Assembly: GCF_014145325.1 (NCBI RefSeq)
Contig: NZ_JACHTF010000006.1
Location: 62,001-126,000 of the forward strand
Origin: Marilutibacter spongiae
Lineage (GTDB): Bacteria > Pseudomonadota > Gammaproteobacteria > Xanthomonadales > Xanthomonadaceae
DNA length: 64,000 nucleotides
Reading direction: 5' to 3'
Positions 29,601-32,578 of this stretch are shown piece after piece. Numbering within the stretch: the first letter of the stretch is position 1; each line of letters starts with the position of its first letter. The position numbers were made by a program, and so were the translations under genes. The notes beneath the pieces were generated by a model. The model was not told where the DNA came from. It saw only the letters and a list, made by a program, of their open reading frames with translations, and made no database searches.

Positions 29601-31277
29601 ATGAATGCCGTTGTCCTGATGCTCGTTGGCCTCGCCACCATGGCGCTGGGCTTCTTCTTCTACTCGAAGTTCATCGCCGAGAAGATCTACCGGCTCGATC
29701 CCAACTACCGGACCCCGGCGCACGAGTTGCGCGACGACGTCGACTTCGTGCCGACCAACAAGTTCGTGCTGTGGGGGCACCACTTCACTTCGGTCGCAGG
29801 TGCGGCGCCGATCGTCGGGCCCGCCATCGCGGTGATCTGGGGCTGGCTGCCGGCCTTCCTGTGGGTGACGCTGGGCACGGTGTTCTTCGCCGGCATCCAC
29901 GATTTCGGCGCGTTGTGGGCCAGTGTCCGAAACAAGGGCAAGTCGATCGGCACGCTGACCGGCACCGTGATCGGCACGCGCGCGCGCAACCTCTTCCTGG
30001 TGGTGATCTTCCTGCTGCTGCTGATGGTCAACGCCGCGTTCGCGGTGGTGATCGCCAACCTGCTGGTCGCCAACCCGGCTTCGGTCATCCCGACCTGGGG
30101 CGCGATCGTGGTGGCCCTGTTCATCGGCCAGGCGATCTACCGCTTCAAGGTGCCGCTGCTGTGGCCCTCGATCATCGGCGTGGTGGTGCTGTACGCGCTG
30201 ATCTTCGTCGGCCAGTCCTACCCGATCACCCTGCCCGAGTCGGTGATGGGCTTCGGCCCGAAGGCGCAGTGGATCATCCTGCTGTTCGCCTACGCGGGCA
30301 TCGCGTCGCTGCTGCCGGTCTGGGTGCTGCTGCAGCCGCGCGACTACATCAACGGCCTGCAGCTGTTCGTCGGCCTGGGCCTGATGTACGCGGCCACCCT
30401 GTTCTTCCACCCCACCATCGTGGCACCGGCCATGAACGCCAACGTGCCCGACGGCACGCCGGGCATCGTACCCCTGCTGTTCGTGACCATCGCCTGCGGC
30501 GCGATCAGCGGCTTCCACGGCCTGGTCGCCTCCGGCACCAGCTCCAAGCAGCTCGACAAGGAAACCGACGCGCGTTTCGTCGGCTACTTCGGCGCGGTGG
30601 GCGAGGGCATGCTGGCGCTGGCGGCGATCATCGCCTGCACCGCGGGCTTCGCCACGCTCGGCGAATGGGAAGGCGTCTACGACAAGTTCGGTTCCGGCGG
30701 CGTGGTCGCCTTCGTCAACGGCGGCGGCAACATCCTCGCCAACGGCCTGGGCCTCGATCCGGGCCTGGGCAGCACGATCCTGTCGGTGATGGCGATCCTG
30801 TTCGCCGCGACCACGATGGACACCGGCCTGCGCCTGCAGCGCTACGTGGTCCAGGAAGCGGCGGAGATCGTCGGCGCGCGCCCGGTGCAACAGGGATGGG
30901 TCGCGACCCTGGTGGCGCTGGCGACCTGCCTGGCGCTGGCCTTCGGCGCCGGCGGCGACGGTTCCGGTGGCATGGTCATCTGGCCGCTGTTCGGCACCAC
31001 CAACCAGCTGCTGGCCGGCCTCACGCTGTGCATCCTGTCGGTGATCCTGATCAAGCAGCGCAGGCCGGTCTGGTTCACCGCGATCCCGCTCGCCTTCCTG
31101 CTGGTCATGTCGCTGCTCGCCCTGCTCGTGCAGCTGGGCAAGTTCTACGCCGACCAGAACTGGCTGCTGCTGGGCATGGACATCGTCATCCTCATCGCGG
31201 CCCTGTGGGTGGCGTTCGAGGCCATCATGGCGATGGCGCGCGGCGCGGGCGGCGAAGCGGTGGCGGAGTCGTCCTGA
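29601..31277 (+). CDS. cstA: Carbon starvation protein A family transporter
   Basis: A 558-aa inner-membrane protein of the CstA/BtsT family, whose studied members take up pyruvate or peptides under carbon limitation. It begins at TM1 (AVVLMLVGLATMALGFFFYSK), and carries HHFTSVAGAAPIVGPAIAVIWGW, GTVFFAGIHDFGALWASVRNKGKSIG and SGFHGLVASGTSSKQL, all hallmarks of the family. It belongs to the shorter class (E. coli CstA is about 700 aa). One base after its stop lies a 92-aa protein ending Cys-Cys, and then an ArsA-like ATPase, so the three form one transcript. The E. coli paralogues are also followed by small proteins ending CC. Confidence 0.94.
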   Translation: MNAVVLMLVGLATMALGFFFYSKFIAEKIYRLDPNYRTPAHELRDDVDFVPTNKFVLWGHHFTSVAGAAPIVGPAIAVIWGWLPAFLWVTLGTVFFAGIHDFGALWASVRNKGKSIGTLTGTVIGTRARNLFLVVIFLLLLMVNAAFAVVIANLLVANPASVIPTWGAIVVALFIGQAIYRFKVPLLWPSIIGVVVLYALIFVGQSYPITLPESVMGFGPKAQWIILLFAYAGIASLLPVWVLLQPRDYINGLQLFVGLGLMYAATLFFHPTIVAPAMNANVPDGTPGIVPLLFVTIACGAISGFHGLVASGTSSKQLDKETDARFVGYFGAVGEGMLALAAIIACTAGFATLGEWEGVYDKFGSGGVVAFVNGGGNILANGLGLDPGLGSTILSVMAILFAATTMDTGLRLQRYVVQEAAEIVGARPVQQGWVATLVALATCLALAFGAGGDGSGGMVIWPLFGTTNQLLAGLTLCILSVILIKQRRPVWFTAIPLAFLLVMSLLALLVQLGKFYADQNWLLLGMDIVILIAALWVAFEAIMAMARGAGGEAVAESS

Positions 31278-31278
31278 C

Positions 31279-31557
31279 ATGGCAGGCGGGACGCCCGGCG
31301 AGGATTCCCTGCTGCAGAAGCTGGCGGCGGGGCTGCAGGAGTTCTACGCGGCCCCCTACCGGCGCACCTTCGCCCGCGCGCGTCGCGACGAGGACGACCT
31401 GTTCATGCTGCTGGTGTTCGCCGAGACCCTGGGCGTGCCCAATCCCGCGGCCTGCTACACGATGGAGCTGATGCCGGTGATGTACGAACGCTTCCACGAC
31501 TGGCATCGCCGCATGGGCCTGGAGCGCTCGCCGCTCGACCACGTCGGCTGCTGCTGA
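31279..31557 (+). CDS. Small CC-tail protein (cory-CC-star type)
   Basis: A 92-aa soluble protein with the last three residues Gly-Cys-Cys directly before the stop. It matches what I know as cory-CC-star proteins, named for the terminal CC. The core is FYAAPYRRTFARARRDEDDLF, MLLVFAETLGVPNP and YTMELMPVMYERFHDWHRRMG, rich in aromatic and charged residues, with no signal peptide or membrane helix. It lies one base after cstA and ten bases before the ArsA-like ATPase gene. Unrelated small proteins beside CstA/BtsT in E. coli (YbdD, YjiX) also end in CC, which suggests the tail has a shared job such as metal binding, docking to the NTPase or to the transporter (inference). Confidence 0.82.
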   Translation: MAGGTPGEDSLLQKLAAGLQEFYAAPYRRTFARARRDEDDLFMLLVFAETLGVPNPAACYTMELMPVMYERFHDWHRRMGLERSPLDHVGCC

Positions 31558-31567
31558 GGCCGGGGGC

Positions 31568-32578
31568 ATGCTGCGGAGCCTGGCGCGCGCGCGACGCGTC
31601 CTCTTCATCGGCGGCAAGGGCGGCGTCGGCAAGACCACGGTCGCCACCGCCACGGCGCTGGCCGCGGCGCGCGAGGGCCGCCGCGTGCTGCTGGTCTCGA
31701 CCGATCCTGCGCACAACCTCGGGCACCTGTGGGGCTGCGGGATCGGCGCGCGCGTGCGGCGGCTCGCGCCCAACCTCGACGGCCTGGAGCTCGACCCCGA
31801 ACAGACCGCGCGGGCCCACCTGGAGGAAGTCGGCGCGGCCCTGCGCAAGCTGATGCCCGAGCACCTGGGCAGCGAGGTCGACAAGCACATGGCGCTCTCG
31901 CGCGAGACGCCCGGGATGCACGAGGCCGCCATGCTCGAGCGCATCGCCGAACTCGTCGAGCAGGGCGACCGCGAGCACGACCTGCTGGTGTTCGACACCG
32001 CGCCTTCCGGCCACACCGCGCGCCTGATGGCCTTGCCTGAGATGATGTCGGCGTGGGTCGACGGCATGCTGCACCGCCAGTCCCGGAGCCGTCATTTCGG
32101 TGAGGTGTTGCGCGGACTGGGTCGCGACGACGACGTCGGTCGCCAGGCCATCGGGCCCATGGAAGGCACGCGCGCCGGGGCGACGGGCGACCCCACGGAC
32201 GCGCGCGACGACCGCATCCGCAGCCTGCTCAACCGCCGGCGCCATCGCTTCGAGCACCTGCGCGGGGTCCTGGCCGATCGCGAGCGCACCGCCTTCGTCA
32301 TCGTCCTGACCGCCGAACGCCTGCCGGTGCTCGAGACGCTGGAGCTGCACGCGCAACTGCAGCGCTCGGGCATCCACGTCGGGGGGCTGGTAGTGAACAA
32401 GCGATCACCGCTCGATGCCGGCGAGTTCCTGGCCCATCGCGCGGCCCTGGAGGCCGGGCACCTGGGGGAACTGGCGCGTTCGTTGCCGGGGGTGCCGCTG
32501 CTGGAGCTGCCGCTGCTGCCGGGCGAGCCGGTTGGCCGCGATGCCCTGGAAGCCTTCTCGGCCCGGCTCCCCGGCTGA
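31568..32578 (+). CDS. ArsA/Get3-like ATPase
   Basis: A 336-aa SIMIBI-class ATPase. It has the deviant Walker A GGKGGVGKTT (15-24) with the signature Lys17, switch I STDPAHNL (44-51), switch II DTAPSGHTARLM and the adenine-contact VVNK. These are the motifs of ArsA and the tail-anchored-protein targeting factor Get3. There is one NTPase domain, no second half as in ArsA, no CxxC zinc motif of Get3, and no arsenic genes nearby, so arsenite export is unlikely. A Gly/Asp/Arg-rich insert (about residues 185-215) is unusual. It forms an operon with cstA and the CC-tail protein, suggesting work in assembly or gating of that transporter (inference). Confidence 0.87.
   Translation: MLRSLARARRVLFIGGKGGVGKTTVATATALAAAREGRRVLLVSTDPAHNLGHLWGCGIGARVRRLAPNLDGLELDPEQTARAHLEEVGAALRKLMPEHLGSEVDKHMALSRETPGMHEAAMLERIAELVEQGDREHDLLVFDTAPSGHTARLMALPEMMSAWVDGMLHRQSRSRHFGEVLRGLGRDDDVGRQAIGPMEGTRAGATGDPTDARDDRIRSLLNRRRHRFEHLRGVLADRERTAFVIVLTAERLPVLETLELHAQLQRSGIHVGGLVVNKRSPLDAGEFLAHRAALEAGHLGELARSLPGVPLLELPLLPGEPVGRDALEAFSARLPG

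Follow-up and report, generated by a model that had tools for sequence, protein, structure and literature searches.

Why would a CstA-family (carbon starvation) transporter be encoded together with an ATPase of the ArsA/Get3 type and a small protein with two cysteines at its end? The question is raised by three consecutive genes in a 64,000-nucleotide stretch of Marilutibacter spongiae DNA (contig NZ_JACHTF010000006.1, positions 62,001 to 126,000 of the forward strand), which we refer to as the window. A preliminary description, made from the letters of the window, had listed the genes with their coordinates, gaps of 1 base (cstA to the small gene) and 10 bases (small gene to the ATPase gene), the ATPase motifs (including DTAPSGHTARL), and a 92-amino-acid (aa) product in which Gly-Cys-Cys precedes the stop; all of these were in the sequence. 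It had also presented the genes as a candidate undescribed transporter-service module. The novelty did not hold up: the operon is real and already known, since Castillo and Saier reported CstA-CstX-ArsA operons in 2010 (PMC2963123) and the small family is named in NCBIfam (NF041419). The new result is a modest one of anatomy. The small protein and the ATPase form a pair found together in every locus examined, with a constant Cys-Cys end, the pair is tied to one CstA clade, and pair and transporter are apparently separable in both directions. Thus, the core unit is the pair, and CstA is its usual, apparently not obligatory, partner.

The locus has the composition of a CstA-CstX-ArsA operon: cstA, a gene of about 90 aa, and a single-domain ArsA homologue of about 330 aa. 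The small protein scored above the 80-bit cut-off of NF041419 (CC_star_Cory) and had the terminal Cys-Cys; we call it Cory. Castillo and Saier reported 26 CstA-ArsA associations, of which 24 included CstX. They made a case for co-evolution and suggested CstX as the link through which ATP hydrolysis is coupled to CstA. Members of their cluster 18 were judged unlikely orthologues. The table of that paper lists a 335-aa ArsA homologue from Pseudomonas stutzeri A1501, and our set includes S. stutzeri loci (L016, L027, L029, L053, and L060), so Cory is very probably CstX. The CstX of one archaeal cluster was given a single transmembrane segment there, unlike Cory. We found no mention of YbdD, selenocysteine, or thiol in that paper, and the cysteine passages seen there deal with ArsA or arsenic, none of them with the end of CstX. 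Our search of open-licence literature returned no paper on cory-CC-star, and among the titles listed for CstA with ArsA, Get3, or CstX the 2010 paper was the sole fitting one; for the years from 2011, a Pseudomonas genome comparison was listed. NCBI records place cory-CC-star beside "carbon starvation protein A" and "ArsA family ATPase" on Cytobacillus, Paracoccus, and Pseudochrobactrum plasmids. The Cytobacillus plasmid also has a 95-aa gene between CstA and Cory (L179:5675-5962), with no Pfam or NCBIfam match.

We compared 86 Cory loci, consisting of the best 80 of at least 571 relatives (at least 591 pattern matches in species genomes) and 6 loci from a panel of 299 evenly drawn Pseudomonadota genomes. 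All 86 were found via Cory, and the best 80 were mostly titled Gammaproteobacteria. L001 is the window locus, and L002 and L048 are one and the same, which leaves 85 distinct loci; with three plasmid homologues, 89 Cory proteins were available. The ATPase gene directly followed the Cory gene in 86 of 86 loci. When the panel was searched in reverse with the window ATPase, close relatives (E < 1e-40) occurred in exactly the 6 genomes in which Cory scored above cut-off. Twelve other panel genomes gave more distant matches only (E 2e-30 to 5e-13), most of them in open frames of about 580 to 600 codons, as in two-domain ArsA (G184, G246, and G114 differed). These two results show that the grouping is not due to chance. 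In addition, each of the 13 Cory genomes tested had exactly one ArsA-family match below 1e-50, and the single strong match in the window's genome was the ATPase of the locus. Cory was present in 17 of 198 genomes of the window's family.

In a tree of 88 Cory-linked ATPases (L052 omitted), all 41 rows from loci where cstA was unlinked or CstA was undetected grouped together (SH-like approximate likelihood ratio test [SH-aLRT], 93). The simplest history is that the operon split once and that Cory and the ATPase have since remained neighbours in all loci seen. One row, L057, titled a Klebsiella pneumoniae metagenome-assembled genome, grouped with uncultured Gammaproteobacteria of the unlinked arrangement and is probably mislabelled.

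CstA was found in 82 of the 86 genomes with the pair: the gene was adjacent in 44, and 38 of the 42 unlinked loci belonged to genomes with CstA elsewhere. In most of the 42, the pair sat in another recurrent region, whose genes we take to be smpB-ratA-fur. Hit profiles read as short-type CstA in 36 of the 42 unlinked genomes, and G301 and G302 had the long type only. To this extent the preliminary description was supported: the small protein and the ATPase go together with CstA. In the panel, CstA was present in 156 genomes and in all 6 with Cory, and since CstA is so common, this co-occurrence was weak (Fisher p 0.03).

The window CstA scored above the PF02554 cut-off and far below that of NF011590 (226 bits against 1188); judged by these scores, it is a member of a branch of the family other than E. 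coli-type CstA. We placed it in a tree of 104 CstA sequences built with a quick method, from which distant types, partial sequences, and 20 of the 30 long-type rows were omitted; the tool warned of false grouping of long branches, L179 among them. Here, the Cory-associated rows, 45 of them linked and 24 unlinked, fell on one side of a branch with an SH-aLRT of 98. The only other members of this clade were three rows of genus g10, and all three g10 genomes lacked Cory (best E 0.03) and the ATPase (best E 9e-11, short matches). Given this nested position, the simplest reading is that g10 lost both genes. The next branch is the short CstA of family f32; f32 genomes had no Cory, and no ATPase was found in the five tested. 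Two other CstA observations were made. The CstA of L083, titled Ornithinimicrobium (Actinomycetota), sat on a long branch among mostly proteobacterial sequences, which indicates transfer or contamination. A distant CstA type of about 490 to 540 aa occurred in eight gammaproteobacterial genomes (L163 to L178), with no Cory or YbdD match there.

The Cys-Cys end was constant in 89 of 89 Cory proteins, the residue preceding it was variable, and an FHxWH motif was also present in all 89. Variable terminal cysteines, which the preliminary description had named as fatal to its idea, were therefore not seen. The ATPase start overlapped the cysteine codons in 78 of 86 loci, and conservation of the end as a side effect of this overlap was considered and rejected: the 8 loci without overlap kept both cysteines, and the codons varied between TGC and TGT. 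Thus, the constraint acts on the protein. No transmembrane segment was detected in Cory by hydropathy, the maximal 19-residue Kyte-Doolittle mean being 1.46 for the window protein and 1.51 among the 89. AlphaFold modelled Cory alone as a helical hairpin with low confidence (predicted local distance difference test [pLDDT] 75, predicted template modelling score [pTM] 0.36, tail block 49). At the limits used, solved structures included no sequence relative of Cory or of CstA, and a single-sequence query found no relative on viral contigs.

How might these parts work together? The locus is best explained as a CstA-CstX-ArsA operon with a two-gene cytosolic core, Cory and a dedicated ATPase. Cory/CstX would be a small helical adaptor whose Cys-Cys carboxyl end is free, and the ATPase would be a nucleotide-switched homodimer for which Cory is presumably an obligatory partner. 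The pair would help short-type CstA to mature or would regulate it, rather than energise it as a permanent subunit, and CstA would be its usual client, perhaps not its sole one. Our confidence in this reading is roughly even. What was observed is the pairing of the two genes, their co-occurrence with CstA, the restriction to one CstA clade, the absence of both from g10, their retention where CstA is undetected, and the constancy of the tail; the reading adds that the two proteins would form a complex, that this would act on CstA, and that the tail would have a role. An analogy may support the action on CstA: according to PMC5847655, constitutive pyruvate uptake in E. coli needs YbdD as well as CstA, and deletion of ybdD lowers pyruvate uptake of the CstA type.

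Several points weigh against this reading. The 86 loci, selected through Cory and mostly from one class, are a biased sample, and 150 of the 156 CstA genomes of the panel have no Cory. The g10 CstA showed no excess of unusual changes (6, compared to 0 to 11 in 13 of 14 control lineages; the exception, a long-branch Cytobacillus row, had 44), so no Cory-dependent CstA surface was visible. An AlphaFold fusion of Cory and one ATPase copy as a single tethered chain (59 alignment rows) left Cory unplaced on the ATPase, a weak negative given the unpaired rows, lack of a dimer, and artificial tether; the model had a pTM of 0.73, and its Cory part was mostly below pLDDT 60 (tail 35), which was worse than Cory alone. 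Finally, genomes G315, G316, G338, and G340 hold the pair, and CstA was not detected in them.

In G338, one contig has the neighbours that CstA has in relatives, in unchanged order, and CstA was absent from the site; most simply it has truly been lost, unless it now lies in an unassembled part. The absence from G315, G316, and G340 may be an assembly gap. The four CstA-less ATPase rows formed no clade of their own but shared a group of 8 with four rows that have CstA, and a single origin of the CstA-less genomes is possible. In the three pairwise comparisons of the CstA-less loci L057, L084, and L086, the proportions of nonsynonymous differences (pN) were far below those of synonymous differences (pS), with values of 0.03 to 0.05 against 0.55 to 0.62 for Cory and 0.11 to 0.12 against 0.69 to 0.72 for the ATPase, although synonymous sites were near saturation and some of the divergence may be older than the CstA loss. 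It is possible, though we hold the idea only tentatively, that Cory and the ATPase are a free-standing ATPase/adaptor system with the free Cys-Cys end as its working group, which arose independently of the CC or CPC end of YbdD, solves the same problem for a CstA-type transporter, and has at least one further client, a hint of which would be the lineages that lack detected CstA and yet keep the pair under strong selection. The transporter-service idea of the preliminary description stands in part: the presence of CstA in the large majority of pair genomes favours it, and retention of the pair where CstA is undetected weakens a strict role. One candidate for a second client, an SNF symporter gene located upstream of the pair in 36 of the 42 unlinked loci, was rejected. 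It does not adjoin the pair in L086, was not found in assemblies G340 and G315, and is present in both g10 genomes searched, which lack the pair; we regard it as a regional neighbour.

The preliminary description had suggested that the Cys-Cys tail hands a metal to the ATPase or docks with it. In a rival explanation, Cory would be an ArsD-like thiol carrier of a metal or metalloid, with the cysteines and the FHxWH histidines binding the ligand, the ATPase handling the metal, and CstA tied in because it needs a cofactor or shares a metabolic state. The invariance of both Cory motifs fits such a role, as does the known parallel of ArsD, a metallochaperone for ArsA (PMC2963123). In 29 of the 42 unlinked loci, a TonB receptor of one cluster was encoded downstream of the ATPase (L038:6889-9027), and the tested member was ZnuD-like (366 bits, below the cut-off of 950). 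This neighbour was found in 0 of 38 linked loci, however, and no column exceeded 30% Cys in the alignment of 88 Cory-linked ATPases. The cysteine of the CTTE stretch, which we take to be ArsA C113, was present in both halves of five of five two-domain ArsA proteins, and the position was Gly in 88 of 88 Cory ATPases. Two histidines, His84 (86 of 88) and His107 (84 of 88), distinguish most Cory ATPases from the five ArsA proteins compared. PMC2963123 already notes that single-domain homologues do not conserve the three cysteines of E. coli ArsA. With the tail also unplaced in the fusion model, transfer of metal from the Cory tail to the ATPase is unsupported, as is the docking, and we consider the metal-carrier explanation unlikely. 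Regarding the neighbours of unlinked loci, the TonB receptors that were read contained His/Asp/Glu-rich stretches, and 25 of the 42 loci encoded a protein of about 110 aa, of one cluster, with a Cys-x-x-Cys motif; the L038 member had no Pfam or NCBIfam match.

The proposal of Castillo and Saier, an ATP-energised transport complex of CstA, Cory, and the ATPase in which Cory couples hydrolysis to CstA, draws on the operon association and matching trees in PMC2963123, and the co-occurrence in 82 of 86 genomes agrees with it. It is quite improbable in view of the g10 CstA, which belongs to the same clade and persists without both partners, the pair that is kept where CstA is undetected, and the hydropathy of Cory.

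A Get3-like role, in which the ATPase would be a targeting factor that aids membrane insertion or folding of CstA and Cory would be its recognition adaptor, starts from the identity of the ATPase. The window protein passed the 135-bit cut-off of TIGR00345 (GET3_arsA_TRC40) and had the deviant Walker A motif, and it did not reach the ArsA pump equivalog TIGR04291 (134 bits against 650). Its best solved chain by sequence was 1f48 (ArsA), and 3zq6 was among the best five, Get3 chains thus being among the solved relatives. Get3 carries a CXXC zinc site, and the 88 ATPases, with no conserved Cys column, have no such site. CstA crosses the membrane many times (the L009 relative has 15 windows above a Kyte-Doolittle mean of 1.6) and is not tail-anchored, and the g10 and f32 CstA do without the ATPase, so that we give a targeting role little credence. 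Passive hitch-hiking, with the pair serving something unrelated to CstA, would suit the 42 loci without adjacent cstA and the four of those genomes where CstA is undetected, but it is very improbable because 36 of the 42 have short-type CstA elsewhere, all 24 of those placed in the tree fell in the Cory-associated clade, and the f32 (5 tested) and g10 (3) genomes lack the whole pair.

The preliminary description had further proposed that two lineages converged on a transporter, a Cys-Cys tail, and a SIMIBI-class NTPase, with small proteins unrelated in sequence to each other. The lack of relatedness was borne out as far as detection reached: the window Cory had no Pfam match, and hhalign of Cory with YbdD/YjiX gave a probability of 0.7%, with distant homology possible given the shallow Cory alignment (Neff 1.9). 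No PF04328 (YbdD) match was found in genome G000. YbdD was present in 50 of the 299 panel genomes, 49 of them with CstA, and ended in Cys-Cys in 29 of 30 loci fetched and in CPC in the remaining one. With no detectable homology between Cory and YbdD, the shared tail looks convergent. The NTPase half is weaker because every Cory seen has its ATPase and YbdD is often without an adjacent GTPase; 11 of the 30 loci had a G3E-type P-loop no more than 1.5 kb from YbdD (three contigs were short). The SIMIBI parallel is thus partial. Compared on sequence, there are two apparently unrelated thiol-end small proteins beside two CstA branches, and the idea of convergence stands while its mechanism does not yet. 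No panel genome held both Cory and YbdD. Strict exclusion was nevertheless rejected, since five genomes with unlinked Cory hold a CPC-ending YbdD-like gene beside a long CstA. The YbdD-like proteins beside long CstA in L087 to L091 and L210 end in Cys-Pro-Cys.

The features of the locus are listed in Table 1. Upstream of cstA and on the same strand, the window encodes a DUF819 membrane protein (PF05684, 28179-29441).

Table 1. Positions in the window of the three genes and of the motifs discussed
Feature	Position	Strand	Basis
cstA, short-type CstA-family transporter, 558 aa	29601..31277	+	PF02554, 463.7 bits; Cory-associated clade
cory-CC-star protein, 92 aa	31279..31557	+	NF041419, 134.4 bits; no transmembrane helix by hydropathy
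Cys91-Cys92 codons, followed by TGA stop	31549..31554	+	Sequence; CC in 86/86 loci and 3/3 plasmid homologues
Single-domain ArsA/Get3-like ATPase, 336 aa	31568..32578	+	TIGR00345, 210.4 bits; PF02374, 197.7 bits
Deviant Walker A, GGKGGVGKTT	31610..31639	+	Conserved at 95% or more across 88 ATPases, the last Thr at 80% or more
Switch I, STDPAHNL	31697..31720	+	Sequence; 88-ATPase alignment
Switch II, DTAPSGHT	31994..32017	+	Sequence; 88-ATPase alignment

CstA-family transporters are common in Pseudomonadota, as the panel indicated, and they take up pyruvate in E. coli; we found no paper that gives a reason for a Cys-Cys partner or a SIMIBI-class NTPase beside them. The occurrence of two apparently unrelated Cys-Cys-ending proteins beside one transporter superfamily makes the tail a testable object, and the natural separations, namely a genus without the pair and genomes without CstA, are ready comparisons.

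Among known systems, Get3/TRC40 shares with the Cory ATPase the TIGR00345 subfamily model and sequence relatives in the PDB; it differs in that the Cory ATPase has no conserved Cys and no tail-anchored client is known for it. ArsD-ArsA likewise combines a small thiol protein with an ArsA-type ATPase, but the ATPase of Cory is single-domain and lacks the ligand cysteines. The E. coli loci, whose gene order we take to be btsT-yjiX-yjiA and cstA-ybdD, resemble the window locus in having a CstA-family transporter, a small protein ending in Cys-Cys, and, in 11 of the 30 YbdD loci, a G3E-type P-loop nearby. They differ in their long-type CstA clade, a small protein without detectable homology to Cory, another GTPase family, and a tail that is sometimes CPC. 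NF041419 supplies a name only, and the window protein belongs to it by score. The closest match is with the CstA-CstX-ArsA operons of PMC2963123, which are alike in gene set and sizes.

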